In this document: piece after piece, positions 51,434 through 57,641 of the stretch
Layout of the letters: each line of letters opens with the position of its first letter
Position numbering within the stretch: position 1 is the stretch's first letter
Origin: Aquirufa antheringensis
GTDB taxonomy: Bacteria > Bacteroidota > Bacteroidia > Cytophagales > Spirosomataceae
NCBI RefSeq assembly: GCF_004307425.1
Contig: NZ_SEWZ01000004.1
Coordinates: 62,001-126,000, forward strand
Direction: 5' to 3'
Length of the DNA: 64,000 nucleotides
Program-made: the position numbers and the translations under genes
Notes under the pieces: model-generated
What the model was told of the DNA's origin: nothing
What the model saw: the letters and a program-made list of their open reading frames with translations, nothing else
Database searches by the model: none

Positions 51434-51468
51434 TCATTCACCATTCACCATTCATCATTTACCATTCA
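51434..51468 (-). repeat. Heptamer array, right arm, across the GH65 stop codon
   Basis: Five units (CCATTCA three times, TCATTCA, TCATTTA); on the minus strand they read TGAATGG-like. It encodes the last residues and stop codon (51455-51457) of the convergent GH65 gene. Confidence 0.8.
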
Positions 51469-53725
51469 GTTTGCGAGCCTCCCCATGCACAAACACCGTC
51501 AACTCCGGTCCAGCCAAGTTAGTGATATCCACTCCTGACTTTTTCACGGCAATGTTTAATTGATTCGCGCGGAAGTTGATTTTGAAGGAGAATTCGTTCC
51601 ATTGTTTTGGCAAGAATGGATTGAAATGCAAGGTGTGATCCTTTAAGCGCATTCCACCAAAACCTTTGATGATTGACATCCAGGTTCCTGCCATACTGGT
51701 GATGTGGCAACCATCTTCGGTATCATTATTATAATCATCTAAGTCTAAACGTGCGGCACGCGTGTAGAATTCGTACGATTTGTCTTCTTTGCCTAGTTTA
51801 GCGGCTAAAATGCTATGAACGCAAGGACTTAACGAGGATTCGTGTACCGTGATCGGCTCATAGAAATTATAATTGCGTTCTAATTCCTCAAGGCTAAAAT
51901 CGTCTTCAAAGAAATAAATCCCTTGTAATACGTCCGCTTGCTTGATGTAGCATGAACGAAGGATGCGATCCCAAGACCATTTTTGGTTGATTGGTCTTTC
52001 TGCCGTAATGGTATTTACGGGTGCGATTACCTTGTCCAAGAAACCATCTTGCTGCAAATAGATCCCTTGCTTTTCATCGCGTGGGAAATACATGTTTTCG
52101 ATGATGTGCTGGAATTGCGCTACTTCCTCTTTTGTGAAAGCTGTTGAAGTAATTTTAGCCGCAGCTTCTGCAGGGTAATTCTGTTGAATCTCTGCGTAAA
52201 CTTCAAGCGTGTATTTTAAACACCATGTGGCGATGTAGTTCGTATACCAGTTATTGTTAACGTTGTTTTCGTATTCGTTCGGGCCTGTTACGCCTAACAT
52301 GACGTATTTCTGCTTGTCTTCCGACCAGTTTACGCGTTGAGCCCAGAAACGTGCGATTCCGACCAACACTTCCCAGCCGTACTCTACTAAGTGTTTACGA
52401 TCGTCTGTGTAATTCACGTAGTCCATAATTGCGTAGGCGATGGCTCCGTTACGGTGGATTTCTTCAAAGGTGATTTCCCACTCGTTGTGGCACTCTTCTC
52501 CGTTCATCGTCACCATTGGATAAAGGGCTGCGCCTTTGTTGAAGCCTAGCTTACCTGCGTTTTCAATGGCGCGGTCTAATTGCTTCCAACGGTAGATTAA
52601 TAGGTTTTTAGAAACTTTAGCAGGAGCGGTTCCTAAATAGAACGGAATACAATAGGCTTCTGTATCCCAATAGGTCGATCCGCCGTATTTCTCACCAGTA
52701 AAGCCTTTAGGACCAATATTTAAACGATCGTCCTCCCCTGTGTAGGTTTGGTTCATTTGGAATATATTGAAACGAATGCCTTGTTGAGCGGATGCGTCAC
52801 CCGAGATGATGATGTCGTTAATCGCCCATTTGGTAGCCCAGGCTGCCGCTTGTTCTTGCAACATTTTGTCAAATCCTTTCGCTGAAATACGGGCTAAGTA
52901 GTCTGAGGCGATCTTTTCAAAGGACGCCGTTGGGTGATTCTCAGAGCTGATGTTAACCGCATACTTGATAAGGGTCAATTTTTCGCCTTGTTTTGCGGAT
53001 AGCGTGTAAGCCAGTTCGCTGTACTTTTCGCGGGTTGTTGAGGTAGCTTTTGCGTCTACTTTTTGACCATTAGCTTTAATCTCGATTTGTTGAGCTGTAA
53101 TGACTTCGAAGCCTGTTTTCTTGGTTTTGGACCAAACAAAATTCGAACCCACTTTTACCTCATCCCAGAATTTTTCATCGTAATTCGAGTCCTTATTCTT
53201 GATGTCTCCATCGATAAAGGCTTTTACTTGAATGTCTTCAGTGAAGTTTAATGGTGTAATAGAATAGGAAATAACACCTGATTCATCATCTGCCATGCTA
53301 TTTAGGCGAACGGATTCGATGGCTAAACGCTTTCCATTTTCTAGGGTGATTTCGCAGGTACGAAGGATATAACCCTCCTTCATGTTCAATTCACGGTAAA
53401 ATGAATGGATTTCACTTGTGTGTAAATCGACCTCTACTCCGCCGATCTGGATAGATAGACCATTCCAGTTAGCGGCATTTAATACTTTGGCAAAATATTC
53501 TGGATACCCATTTTTCCACCAACCTACACGAGTTTTATCTGGATAATAGACGCCCGCTACATAATTTCCTTGAAGGGTTTTACCTGTATAAGTTTCTTCA
53601 AATGAACCTCTTTGTCCCATTCGTCCGTTGCCGAGAGAAAAGATGGATTCGGTGATTTCGTTGTAGGCAGGATGGAATTGGTCTTCAATGACTTTCCATT
53701 CATCTATTTTAAGATATTGCTTCAT
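51455..53725 (-). CDS. Glycoside hydrolase family 65 phosphorylase (maltose phosphorylase-like)
   Basis: Inverting alpha-glucoside phosphorylase releasing beta-glucose 1-phosphate from a disaccharide; 756 residues, normal for GH65. The proton donor is in GVTGPNEYENNVNNN near residue 488. The substrate loops FWDTEAYCIPFYLG (here YWDTEAYCIPF) near residue 345 and ECHNEWEITFEEIHRNGAIAYA near residue 410 are intact. No signal peptide, so it is cytoplasmic. Beta-phosphoglucomutase follows the same pathway and is encoded just upstream. Maltose is the likely substrate, but kojibiose or trehalose cannot be excluded by sequence. Confidence 0.9.
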   Translation of the reverse strand: MKQYLKIDEWKVIEDQFHPAYNEITESIFSLGNGRMGQRGSFEETYTGKTLQGNYVAGVYYPDKTRVGWWKNGYPEYFAKVLNAANWNGLSIQIGGVEVDLHTSEIHSFYRELNMKEGYILRTCEITLENGKRLAIESVRLNSMADDESGVISYSITPLNFTEDIQVKAFIDGDIKNKDSNYDEKFWDEVKVGSNFVWSKTKKTGFEVITAQQIEIKANGQKVDAKATSTTREKYSELAYTLSAKQGEKLTLIKYAVNISSENHPTASFEKIASDYLARISAKGFDKMLQEQAAAWATKWAINDIIISGDASAQQGIRFNIFQMNQTYTGEDDRLNIGPKGFTGEKYGGSTYWDTEAYCIPFYLGTAPAKVSKNLLIYRWKQLDRAIENAGKLGFNKGAALYPMVTMNGEECHNEWEITFEEIHRNGAIAYAIMDYVNYTDDRKHLVEYGWEVLVGIARFWAQRVNWSEDKQKYVMLGVTGPNEYENNVNNNWYTNYIATWCLKYTLEVYAEIQQNYPAEAAAKITSTAFTKEEVAQFQHIIENMYFPRDEKQGIYLQQDGFLDKVIAPVNTITAERPINQKWSWDRILRSCYIKQADVLQGIYFFEDDFSLEELERNYNFYEPITVHESSLSPCVHSILAAKLGKEDKSYEFYTRAARLDLDDYNNDTEDGCHITSMAGTWMSIIKGFGGMRLKDHTLHFNPFLPKQWNEFSFKINFRANQLNIAVKKSGVDITNLAGPELTVFVHGEARKLNGK

Positions 53726-53755: not shown

Positions 53756-53763
53756 CAAAAATA
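53756..53763 (-). promoter_or_regulatory. -7 promoter element of the GH65 gene
   Basis: TATTTTTG on the minus strand, 30 nt before the ATG at 53725. Confidence 0.5.
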
Positions 53764-53787: not shown

Positions 53788-53803
53788 CTGTGCTAGGCTG
53801 TTT
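53788..53803. promoter_or_regulatory. Maltose-locus motif, copy 1
   Basis: CTGTGCTAGGCTGTTT, identical at 14 of 16 positions to 54524-54539. It lies 24 nt upstream of the GH65 -7 box, between that gene and pgmB, where an activator could bind. Confidence 0.5.
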
Positions 53804-53805
53804 CT

Positions 53806-54453
53806 TTAAAAAAGAAGCAAATCAGCCGATTTTATTCCGATAAAGTTCGGAATTACCTTGTTAGCATCGCTCAATACCGACGCTTCTCCTATTCCAATCA
53901 CTTTCATTCCTCCATTTATGGCAGCTTCTACCCCGGCTTGAGCATCTTCGAATACGATACATTCTGCTGGCGAAAAACCTAGTCCTTCGGCACCTTTTAA
54001 GAATACCTCTGGGTCTGGTTTGCTCTTGCTTACTTTATTTCCATCGATGATTAGATCAAACCAAGGCATTAATCCTGTCTTTTCTAGAATGATCTCCGCA
54101 TTTTTACTGGCGGAACCTAAGGCGATTTTATAGCCCTCTGCTTTAATTTGGCCTAAGAAATCCACCACACCTGGAAGGATTTCGGATGGATTCATATTCG
54201 AAATTAAGTGCAGGTAATTGTCGTTTTTCTCTTTCAACCAAGCTTCCTTTTGTTCCTCTGTAGCGGAATATGAAGCCCAATCTAGAATGCGATTCAATGA
54301 TTCTACTCTGGATACGCCTTTTAATTGTTCGTTTTGCTCTTCGGTTAATTGGTAGTTGAAATTCTCTCCTAGCATTTTCCAAGCTTGAAAGTGATAAATT
54401 GCTGTATCAACTAATACTCCGTCGAGATCAAAAAGGCAGGCTTTGTAAGACAT
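53806..54453 (-). CDS. pgmB: Beta-phosphoglucomutase
   Basis: HAD-superfamily enzyme converting beta-glucose 1-phosphate, the product of the GH65 phosphorylase, into glucose 6-phosphate; 215 residues. The catalytic DxD-type motif is FDLDGVLVDTA at residues 8-18, with the threonine/serine motif GSASKNA near residue 115 and the lysine/acid motifs KSKPDPEVF and FEDAQAGVEAA near residues 143-180. Cytoplasmic. It is divergent from the amylase gene and 80 bp before GH65, which has its own -7 box. Confidence 0.93.
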   Translation of the reverse strand: MSYKACLFDLDGVLVDTAIYHFQAWKMLGENFNYQLTEEQNEQLKGVSRVESLNRILDWASYSATEEQKEAWLKEKNDNYLHLISNMNPSEILPGVVDFLGQIKAEGYKIALGSASKNAEIILEKTGLMPWFDLIIDGNKVSKSKPDPEVFLKGAEGLGFSPAECIVFEDAQAGVEAAINGGMKVIGIGEASVLSDANKVIPNFIGIKSADLLLF

Positions 54454-54482
54454 ATTTAGGTAGGGATTGTTTTAAAGATTAG

Positions 54483-54509
54483 CAAAATTATTACATTTAC
54501 ATCTGCCAA
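54483..54509 (-). promoter_or_regulatory. Promoter of pgmB
   Basis: On the minus strand, TTG (54507-54509), a 16-nt spacer and TAATTTTG (54483-54490) followed by C, 29 nt before the ATG at 54453. Confidence 0.55.
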
Positions 54510-54523
54510 AAAACCTTTTTCTG

Positions 54524-54539
54524 CTGTGCTAGACAGTTT
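54524..54539. promoter_or_regulatory. Maltose-locus motif, copy 2
   Basis: CTGTGCTAGACAGTTT, with a palindromic core CTGT-5 nt-ACAG. It is 33 nt upstream of the pgmB -7 box and 12 nt before the amylase ATG, so it could control both divergent genes. Confidence 0.55.
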
Positions 54540-54551
54540 ATTTTAAATTAT

Positions 54552-56309
54552 ATGCGTAAATTTTATCTTGTTCTATTGTCCGCCTTCTTAATGTATCCTC
54601 TTATGGCTCAGAAATCCGTAAAAACTGATAAACATGTTGTGTACCAAATGATGTTCCATCTTTGGGGAAATCAAAATACCAACGTGAAAAGAAACGGTTC
54701 TGCTGCTGAGAATGGGGTAACTAAGTTCAAAGATATATCTACTAAGGGTTTACAGGCATTGAAGAAGAAAGGTTATTCTCATTTATATACGACGGGAATT
54801 CTAGAGCACGCGACGATGGAGGATTTTTCTGCTTTCGGATCGCCTTTAGATCATCCTCAGGTAGTCAAAGGTCGCGCTGGTTCGCCATTTGCGATTAAGG
54901 ATTATTATGATGTGAATCCTTTTTTAGCCGATAAACCGGCTGAACGGATGCAAGAGTTTTCTGCTATGTTAGATCGTGTCCATCAAGCAGATTTAAAATT
55001 AGTCTTAGATTTTGTACCAAATCACTTAGCCAGAGTATATCATTCGGATCAGAAACCGGCGGGAGTGGTTGATTTTGGCCAAAACGATAACAAAGACCTC
55101 TCCTTCTCTCCTTCCAATAATTTCTACTATTTACCAGGTACTCAGTTTACCATTCCTACGGGTGTGAATCCGCCAGTCCCTGTGACAGTTCCTTATATTG
55201 AAATTCCTGCGAAAGTGAGTGGTAACAACGTATTCTCCGCTCAACCTTCGATTCATGATTGGTTTGAAACGGTAAAGTTAAACTACGGTGTTGATCTTCA
55301 ACATGGAAATCAGACGCATTTTGATCCGATTCCGGATACTTGGTTGAAAATGACAGATGTGTTAGTGTATTGGACCAAAAAAGGAGTGGATGGTTTCCGT
55401 TGTGATATGGCGGAGATGGTACCTGTCGAGTTTTGGGCTTATGCTATTCCTAAGGTAAAAGCACTCAATCCAGAGGTAGTTTTTATCGCTGAGATTTATA
55501 ACCCACAAGAATACCGGAATTATATTTTCAAAGGAGGATTTGACTATTTGTATGATAAAGTGGGTCTTTATGACGGAATTCGTCATATTATGGAAAATAA
55601 ACCTGGCGCAACTACGGCTGATATTACCCGTGTTTGGCAACAGGAATCTGGTGATTTTGCGAACCATATGTTACGTTTCCTAGAAAATCACGATGAGACG
55701 CGTTTGAATTCACGTGGCTTTGCGGCTTCTAATTTTTGGTCGACTATTCCGGGTATGGTATTGACCGCGAGTATGCACGATGGACCTTTGATGATCTATT
55801 TTGGTCAAGAGTTTGGGGAGAAAGCGCAGGAAATCGAAGGATTTAATGAGGCAGACGATCGTACGACGATGTTTGATTTTTATCGCGTTGATACACACCA
55901 GCGCTGGTTAAATGGTGGAAAATTTGATGGAGGTAAATTAACGGCGGCTGAAAAAGAAATTGATTCTTTCTACAGCGAATTGTTAGTGTTGATTAATTCG
56001 AGCGAAGTCATTCAAAAAGGCAAGTTCTTTGATCTTCAATACGCTCAAAATGCGGCCTATCCAAAAGATAAAGTATATGCCTATTTACGCTATACAGATA
56101 AAGGTCGCAACTTAATCATTTGTAATTTTGATTCTGTGAGTCACGATTTCAATATCGAAATCCCTACGTTAGCCTTGGATATGATGGGAATAAAATCCTA
56201 CAGCCTAAAAACGTTCAAATCATTTGCACCTCCTGCAGCTCAAGCGAGTAAAGTTGAAGGAAATCGTATTCAAATACCCTCTAATTCCGCAATCGTTATT
56301 TCACTATAA
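54552..56309 (+). CDS. Alpha-amylase family (GH13) enzyme, exported
   Basis: Glucan-cleaving enzyme of 585 residues with a signal peptide (MRKFYLVLLSAFLMYPLMAQ), so periplasmic or outer surface. Catalytic residues are visible: the nucleophile aspartate in GVDGFRCDMAEM near residue 284, the acid/base glutamate in VFIAEIYNP near residue 316 and the transition-state aspartate in FLENHDETR near residue 380. The first conserved region is DFVPNHLA near residue 155. A beta-sandwich C-terminal domain covers residues about 505-585. It would produce oligosaccharides for the permease that follows after 6 nt. Confidence 0.9.
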   Translation: MRKFYLVLLSAFLMYPLMAQKSVKTDKHVVYQMMFHLWGNQNTNVKRNGSAAENGVTKFKDISTKGLQALKKKGYSHLYTTGILEHATMEDFSAFGSPLDHPQVVKGRAGSPFAIKDYYDVNPFLADKPAERMQEFSAMLDRVHQADLKLVLDFVPNHLARVYHSDQKPAGVVDFGQNDNKDLSFSPSNNFYYLPGTQFTIPTGVNPPVPVTVPYIEIPAKVSGNNVFSAQPSIHDWFETVKLNYGVDLQHGNQTHFDPIPDTWLKMTDVLVYWTKKGVDGFRCDMAEMVPVEFWAYAIPKVKALNPEVVFIAEIYNPQEYRNYIFKGGFDYLYDKVGLYDGIRHIMENKPGATTADITRVWQQESGDFANHMLRFLENHDETRLNSRGFAASNFWSTIPGMVLTASMHDGPLMIYFGQEFGEKAQEIEGFNEADDRTTMFDFYRVDTHQRWLNGGKFDGGKLTAAEKEIDSFYSELLVLINSSEVIQKGKFFDLQYAQNAAYPKDKVYAYLRYTDKGRNLIICNFDSVSHDFNIEIPTLALDMMGIKSYSLKTFKSFAPPAAQASKVEGNRIQIPSNSAIVISL

Positions 56310-56315
56310 AAACCT

Positions 56316-57641
56316 ATGAAAACATTTACTAAGCCGCGTTTAAGTATTGGCCAAATCTTTAATATGAGTGTCGGATTTTTAGGCATTCAATTTGGTTTTG
56401 CACTACAGAATGGTAATGCCTCCCGCGTACTTCAAAACTTCGGTGCAGATGTCGAGCAATTATCTTGGTTTTGGTTAGCTGCGCCTTTAACAGGGATGAT
56501 CATTCAACCGATTATTGGTTTTTATTCAGATCGTACTTGGAATGGATTGGGTCGTAGAAAACCTTTCTTCCTAACAGGAGCGATTTTAGCTGCGACAGCC
56601 TTGTTCTTTTTCCCTCATGCGGGAGCCTTAGCTAATTTTATCCCTCCGATGATCGTGGGTGCGGGTATTTTAATGATGATGGATGCTTCGTTTAACGTGG
56701 CGATGGAGCCGTTTAGGGCTTTAGTGGCGGATAATTTACCAGAAGAACAAAATACGCTGGGCTTTTCGATTCAGACCTTCTTGATAGGAATTGGAGCGGT
56801 AGTGGGTTCTTGGCTACCCTATATGTTTGGTAATTGGTTCGGTATTTCAAAGGATGCTGTGGAAGGCCAAATCCCAGACAACGTATTATATAGTTTTTAC
56901 GTAGGGGCAGCCGTGTTTATTACAGCGATTGTTTGGACGATTGCGACGACTAAGGAATATTCTCCAGCAGAGCGTGAGGCGATGGGTTTTGAGGAAGAAG
57001 GTAAACAGGATTCGATTTGGTCCGTATTCCGTTATATTAAGGAAATGCCTTTCACGATGCGCCAATTAGGTGTGGTGCAATTCTTTTCTTGGTTTGCCTT
57101 ATTCTCGATGTGGGTATTCTCCACTCCTGCCATTGCGCACCACGTTTACGGATTACCGATGGACGATCATAGTTCTCCTGAATTCCAAAATGCGGCCAAC
57201 TGGGTGGGTATTATTTTTGGCGTTTACAGTGCGGTTTCTGCCGTTTATGCCATCTTTTTGCCACGCATTGCCAAAGCAATTGGAAATAAAGCGACGCACG
57301 CGGTTTCTTTGATAGCCGGTGGTTTGGGATTAATTTCTATCTATTTCATTTCAGATCCTCAGATGCTGATCCTCAGTATGGTGGGTGTGGGAATGGCTTG
57401 GGCTTCTATTTTAGCGATGCCTTATGCCATTTTAGCTGGTTCCATTCCAATGTCTAAAATGGGTGTTTACATGGGTATCTTCAATTTCTTCATCACCTTA
57501 CCTCAAATCGTGAGTGGTATTATTGGAGGATCCTTGGTGAAACACGTGTACGGTGGTAATGCCATTTTCGCTATCGTGGTAGCGGGTTTCTTCTTTATCG
57601 CTGGTTCGATTAGCGTATTGTGGATTAAGGAAAAGGCCTAG
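56316..57641 (+). CDS. MFS sugar transporter, likely maltose/maltodextrin permease
   Basis: A 441-residue major facilitator protein with 12 predicted membrane helices. The loop after helix 2 carries GFYSDRTWNGLGRRKPFFL (near residue 67), the MFS motif A of sucrose/maltose (SLC45-like) permeases. Internal symmetry is seen with the FLPRIAKAIGNKATHA loop near residue 315. The neighbouring amylase and phosphorylase make maltose the probable substrate. There is no SusC/SusD pair in the window, so uptake across the outer membrane must rely on other proteins. Confidence 0.88.
   Translation: MKTFTKPRLSIGQIFNMSVGFLGIQFGFALQNGNASRVLQNFGADVEQLSWFWLAAPLTGMIIQPIIGFYSDRTWNGLGRRKPFFLTGAILAATALFFFPHAGALANFIPPMIVGAGILMMMDASFNVAMEPFRALVADNLPEEQNTLGFSIQTFLIGIGAVVGSWLPYMFGNWFGISKDAVEGQIPDNVLYSFYVGAAVFITAIVWTIATTKEYSPAEREAMGFEEEGKQDSIWSVFRYIKEMPFTMRQLGVVQFFSWFALFSMWVFSTPAIAHHVYGLPMDDHSSPEFQNAANWVGIIFGVYSAVSAVYAIFLPRIAKAIGNKATHAVSLIAGGLGLISIYFISDPQMLILSMVGVGMAWASILAMPYAILAGSIPMSKMGVYMGIFNFFITLPQIVSGIIGGSLVKHVYGGNAIFAIVVAGFFFIAGSISVLWIKEKA

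Follow-up and report, generated by a model that had tools for sequence, protein, structure and literature searches.

A maltose-phosphorylase-type gene cluster with two upstream sites

We analyzed a window of 64,000 nucleotides, the whole stretch of contig NZ_SEWZ01000004.1 considered here, from Aquirufa antheringensis, whose source genome comprises 2.5 Mb in 11 contigs. The window contains a GH65 and a pgmB-type gene on one strand and a divergent GH13 gene with a transporter on the other, and a 16-letter word precedes a promoter box at both GH65 and pgmB. The names maltose phosphorylase and beta-phosphoglucomutase are predictions from protein family plus gene context. The features are as follows.

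51455..53725, minus strand: GH65 phosphorylase gene (Pfam PF03632/PF03636/PF03633), putative maltose phosphorylase by context
53756..53763, minus strand: -7-type promoter box of GH65, TATTTTTG, 24 nt after site 1
53788..53803, minus strand: site 1, AAACAGCCTAGCACAG, upstream of GH65 (forward-strand reading CTGTGCTAGGCTGTTT)
53806..54453, minus strand: pgmB-type HAD-family gene (Pfam HAD_2), putative beta-phosphoglucomutase by context
54483..54490, minus strand: -7-type promoter box of pgmB, TAATTTTG, 33 nt after site 2
54524..54539, minus strand: site 2, AAACTGTCTAGCACAG, upstream of pgmB (forward-strand reading CTGTGCTAGACAGTTT), 12 nt from the start codon (ATG) of the divergent GH13
54552..56309, plus strand: GH13 alpha-amylase family gene (Pfam PF00128), divergent from pgmB
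56316..57641, plus strand: MFS transporter directly 3' of GH13 (Pfam MFS_1/MFS_2)

An earlier note on this DNA had described two copies of the word in the same orientation, and both were found exactly where it had placed them; its spacings to the GH65 and pgmB boxes and to the GH13 ATG were all correct when remeasured. The two sites lie 736 bp apart. If the last G of the box is placed at -7, the sites would occupy about -54 to -39 (site 1) and about -63 to -48 (site 2). Both would then be next to the -33 region or slightly above it, a place typical for an activator. In several genomes, the -7 box reads TAATTTCG or TAATTTAG, short of the full consensus. The note had further held that the regulator is not encoded in the window; this stands as far as a Pfam scan of 24 window proteins reaches, among 53 listed open reading frames of which the others are mostly larger or overlapping. 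None of the 24 showed a transcription-factor domain, and three had no match at all.

Frequency of the word in the genome, genus, and family

Comparison with relatives yielded a sharper word, AAACnnnnTAGCACAG, read on the GH65/pgmB strand. It occurs exactly only twice in the source genome, both times in the cluster, against 0.36 matches expected from base composition; the motif is therefore not frequent elsewhere in the genome and passes a check by which the earlier note had said it could be refuted. Searches allowing three mismatches were not informative (3 matches versus 1.39 expected in the window; 37 versus 49 for the reversed pattern in the genome). Up to one mismatch, the genome holds 9 matches versus 16 for the reversed pattern.

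Across 38 genus genomes, we counted 48 exact matches in 23 genomes, 31 in the cluster and 17 elsewhere, versus 14 for the reversed pattern, indicating that the cluster matches are specific and that those off the cluster are overall at background. The regulon hence looks narrow, and we rejected a large one on both the single-genome and the genus counts. The off-cluster exact matches that were read include five in mreB-araC or adk-susC gaps, two in a single repetitive open reading frame (G021), and one in an array of hairpins (G039). This array (L064; G039:C31, about 276440-277540) is built of units of about 70 bp with hairpins such as AGCACTGGGTTTAAACCCAGTGCT.

When the word was searched together with a TAnnTTTG box within 12 to 36 nt in 222 family genomes, 37 matches were obtained in 23 genomes, versus a single match for the reversed pattern. 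Thirty-four of the 37 belong to this cluster (31 in Aquirufa clusters and three in the pgmB-GH65 gaps of G054, G057, and G134); of the other three, those in G106 and G208 lie beside other genes, and the third is at G134:C12. As exact copies in the source genome occur only in the cluster and their position is conserved across genera, we consider the word to be above chance; positional conservation can establish a short motif without a genome-wide excess. A decayed mobile or repetitive element without function, which could have left two copies 736 bp apart and which has a look-alike in the G039 array, is extremely improbable, given that the source genome shows no genome-wide family at up to one mismatch and that position and spacing are kept over six genera, a conservation that already contradicts it.

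Conservation in front of GH65

Conservation was counted in an unforced comparison of 48 GH65 genes, for which 300 nt of upstream sequence was taken on one strand, with the motif not forced, and a tree was built. The genus sample comprised 16 of the 18 Aquirufa genomes with GH65 (G003 and G015, with the gene split or cut, were omitted), and 34 of the 222 family genomes were chosen, returning 30 loci; all but G056, which is truncated ahead of its start, were retained, leaving 29. Genomes G039 to G051 lie outside this comparison, and five of them (G041, G042, G043, G046, and G047) have the site.

The site falls within one clade of the GH65 tree, which holds 31 rows from six genera (Aquirufa, g45 with G188, g16, g25, g26, and g32) and whose fork support of 90/89 is just below the starred level. 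In 25 of these 31 members, the word is followed by TAnnTTnG at 24 to 25 nt; 22 are exact, G135 has one mismatch, and G141 and G188 have two each. A two-mismatch match in G053 is doubtful because no TAnnTTnG box stands at the expected distance. The site is absent from GH65 in the Aquirufa nivalisilvae-type genomes (G005, G016, G018, G020, and G024; four to five mismatches), and none of the 17 GH65 genes outside the clade has it (best, three mismatches; range, three to five). The conservation upstream of GH65 and pgmB orthologues on which the earlier note had staked its proposal is thus borne out, in 25 of 31 members of the GH65 clade and at 17 of 22 Aquirufa pgmB genes. Within the GH65 promoters, the sequence varies at the center of the site and over most of the spacer. 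An A flanks the word at -3, -2, and +17 in 27, 27, and 28 of 29 distinct rows (out of 31), which were picked by a pattern fixing most of the motif, so that perfect columns are partly circular.

Site 1 lies 2 nt past the pgmB stop, and the word might belong to the 3' ends of genes such as pgmB, as an RNA element or terminator, rather than to promoters. A near copy lies 3 nt past a glucokinase stop (see below), and in two genomes of the Arcicella genus (G054 and G057; L295 and L296, at about 1501) the word in the pgmB-GH65 gap falls within an inverted repeat resembling a terminator, AAAAAACACCTT-AGCACAGC-AAGGTGTTTTTT. However, site 2 follows no gene on its own strand, and the inverted repeat is absent by eye from all other aligned rows, these two genomes being the only ones with an inverted repeat over the site; the hairpin and U run of an intrinsic terminator were thus not recognized as a feature of the site. 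Moreover, the -7 box is always 24/25 or 33 nt away, whereas the distance to the pgmB stop varies, from 2 nt in the window to 54 nt in G134. We therefore regard a terminator as very unlikely.

The second site and a clade without either

The pgmB site stands at exactly 33 nt in 17 of the 22 Aquirufa genomes read, 14 of them exact and three (G012, G019, and G046) with one mismatch each, and is absent from the five A. nivalisilvae-type genomes. G188 (g45) has a weaker pgmB site, AGAGAGTGTAGCACTG, 33 nt before TAATTTTA. In g25, GH13 and pgmB are in line, and GCACAGTTTAGCACAG lies upstream of the operon in all three genomes that this reading covers (L367, L369, and L373; G132 and G133 fall outside it); in L369 and L373, TTTG ends 42 nt beyond the site, and L367 has a degenerate sequence there. 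The spacing difference of about one helical turn pointed out in the earlier note recurs, with 24/33 nt in Aquirufa and 25/34 nt in a second genus (G130), and the Aquirufa and g25 readings together indicate that a difference of about 9 nt between the two sites is kept in both genera. In three g16 genomes (L161 and L372, of the same species; L368; L374) and in g26 (L371), the GH13 gap revealed no such second site, the best matches having five to six mismatches. An Aquirufa-type cluster including both sites is also present in a MAG labelled Spirosoma fluviale (L159), a label that looks wrong.

The five A. nivalisilvae-type genomes carry the same genes with no site. Their pgmB-GH65 gap is short, roughly 25 to 50 nt, with no full TAnnTTTG by eye, which is consistent with a switch to transcription as an operon, but the same loss would be expected if the site were dispensable. 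Dispensability is suggested by this clade, which lacks the site despite having the same genes, and by G053, in which no site followed by a box is present. The GH65 clade also offers a natural comparison between species that have the site and species that share the genes but lack it. The GH13 matches of three genomes of the site-free clade (G024, G020, and G018; L132, L133, and L134) contain one stop codon each, possibly reflecting gene decay or alignment overrun.

Symmetry of the site and a possible repressor

The site is asymmetric, and its orientation to the -7 box is always the same. The palindromic core CTGT-N5-ACAG described in the earlier note is found in copy 2 only and is not a property of the site. 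It depends on a T at the fifth base, present in 8 of 17 Aquirufa copy-2 sites, all from near relatives of the source genome. Among 15 distinct variants tested, the best was copy 2 of the window clade (4 of 6 pairs), no other came closer, and the rest had two to three of five to seven pairs; the palindrome was therefore rejected as the site design and is peculiar to copy 2 of close relatives.

In g25, the site is a perfect head-to-tail repeat, TTAGCACAG-T-TTAGCACAG, with a period of 10, and in the three operon sites of that genus the half-site recurs in 8 of 8 letters at offset -10. Self-similarity was scored over 26 chosen sites; at offset -10 it reached 3.9 of 8 for 17 GH65 sites and 3.5 of 8 for six pgmB sites, with a mean of 2.0 to 2.1 and values not above those at -5 and +5, so only g25 gives the tandem reading a firm footing. 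The same 26 sites gave 1.5 to 3.1 of 8 at offsets of +/-67 and +/-77, within 2 standard deviations of the mean, and 1.3 to 2.7 of 8 at +/-21.

LacI-family operators are palindromes, a design that differs from the site described here. A repressor, LacI/MalR-like or other, might nonetheless occupy the same site, block RNA polymerase, and be released by maltose. The genome's single LacI gene (G000:C3:599449) encodes a protein 41 to 45% identical to LacIs on the GH65 locus of five other Bacteroidota (L196, L201, L206, L215, and L223); by pattern search, a LacI gene is present on 14 of 80 GH65 loci, including these five, and absent from this cluster. However, that only LacI gene lies on another contig (C3), beside gyrA, with none next to the cluster genes, and the site, fixed in orientation, precedes the -33 region and does not cover the promoter core. 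We consider a repressor unlikely. With the palindromic core unsupported and none of the 15 variants closer to a palindrome than copy 2, the MalR/LacI-type regulator named in the earlier note is itself unlikely, and we set the LacI/MalR architecture aside, finding neither a palindrome nor a LacI beside the genes. The relevant passage of PMC4052901 names a MalR of the LacI family for Firmicutes; control of maltose genes is what the two systems would share.

Occurrences at other loci

A near copy, AAACAGCCTAGAACAG, lies at G000:C1:554399-554414 (L003:1501-1516), between a ROK-like glucokinase gene, whose stop precedes it by 3 nt, and acpP, whose TAATCTTTG box follows 43 nt further on. By eye, like words occupy the same place in G007, G021, G023, G008, and G015, with AAAGACCCTAGCACAG in G019; the word is degenerate in G013, G002, G006, G003, G011, and G022 and was not seen in the other 12 of the 25 genus genomes extracted. 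This near copy is a lead only. The glucokinase would take glucose released by the phosphorylase.

In the adk-susC/susD gap, the exact word occurs in G011 and G041 (L269:5060-5075 and L270:5690-5705), 14 nt before TATATTGG; there is one mismatch in G022 and three to five in 12 others, among the 15 of 30 loci scored, the remaining 15 being those where the pattern missed the start codon. Measured from the site, the box ends at 22 nt for susC (in one subclade), 32 to 33 nt for GH65, 41 to 42 nt for pgmB or GH13-pgmB, and 52 nt for acpP. Such helical stepping of promoters is no more than suggestive, as chance may account for the susC and acpP sites.

The gap between mreB and an AraC-type gene (G000:C2:71625) raises the alternative that the switch is this AraC-type protein, which would also regulate its own gene by way of the word. 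The word is exact there in G022, G041, and G011 (L074:1501, L076:1501, and L240), has one mismatch in G003, is degenerate in G006, G012, and G019, and is absent from the five genomes without the GH65 site. Yet orthologues of the protein at at least 93% identity are present in 22 of 25 genus genomes, including those five; the source genome's own clade shows no good match in the gap; the word sits 125 nt from the araC -7 box; and off-cluster exact matches in the genus (17) are on a par with the control (14). We hold this alternative to be quite unlikely. Five further AraC-type matches of the source genome were read, and none lies beside GH65 or pgmB. One of the five (L273:2629-3474) stands between two MFS transporters, one of them sugar-porter-like by eye; in L273:2629-5865, it is followed by the sugar-porter-like MFS gene and then a GntR-type gene (names by eye), and the AraC-type and GntR-type genes may be sugar regulators.

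A candidate tandem-site activator of maltose phosphorolysis

The 16-letter word is probably the landing site of a candidate gene switch for genes that split and use maltose among related environmental bacteria, and the control site is solid but of an ordinary kind. From the sites and their conservation, orientation, and spacing, all of which are observed, we infer protein binding, activation, a tandem mode of reading, and an inducer (maltose or a maltodextrin), and we favor, with reasonable though not strong confidence, the reading that the two copies are sites of one transcriptional activator that reads them in tandem and coregulates GH65 and pgmB. Such an activator would recognize a head-to-tail tandem, (A/G)(A/C)ACA(C/G)-N2-TAGCACAG, whose half-sites are 10 bp, or one helical turn, apart. 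From a position directly 5' of the -33 region, and in one orientation to the -7 box, it would aid the primary sigma factor at the GH65 and pgmB promoters, and the divergent GH13-MFS operon may be under the same control. The maltose phosphorolysis pathway would thereby be switched on as a unit by maltose or a maltodextrin.

MalT boxes of the Escherichia coli maltose regulon are asymmetric activator sites near the -35 region that are used in direct repeats; the site resembles them in its asymmetry, its place at maltose genes, and the direct repeat proposed for it and differs in sequence and core promoter type. Boxes of the OmpR/PhoB family are tandem 6-bp half-sites with a period of 10 to 11 bp that lie beside the -35 region in fixed orientation and serve activation. 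The place near the -35 region and the fixed orientation are alike here, and the half-site period, clear in g25, and the proposed activation would be so too, whereas no response regulator is linked to this cluster. AraC-type activator sites are asymmetric, about 16 to 20 bp long, and fixed in orientation and position upstream of the promoter, a description that the site fits. The likeliest protein families would be OmpR/PhoB-type winged-helix or AraC-type proteins, which fit an asymmetric site of fixed orientation with a repeat period of 10 in g25 better than a palindrome-reading dimer does.

As described in PMC3878776, the SusR sites of Bacteroides, at starch/maltose genes, consist of direct repeats spaced by 67 or 77 bp and serve an activator, and those of HTCS (AraC-type hybrid two-component) regulators are direct repeats about 21 bp apart on one helix face. 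SusR thus shares with our proposal the phylum, the class of genes, the direct-repeat design, and activation, and HTCS would share a direct repeat read from one helix face, but no second copy stands out here at 67 or 77 bp, and the repeat proposed here is 10 bp, with nothing at 21. Both architectures were set aside, as these offsets score near background. A literature search that stopped short of the full text of Aquirufa papers found no sugar regulator named for Aquirufa or its relatives. That the activator belongs to a family new to maltose in Bacteroidota, with a 10-bp head-to-tail site and promoters stepped by the helical turn, is a tentative and rather doubtful proposal. The favored reading, a single activator acting at both promoters, offers a regulatory site of maltose phosphorolysis that can be tested in Aquirufa and related bacteria.
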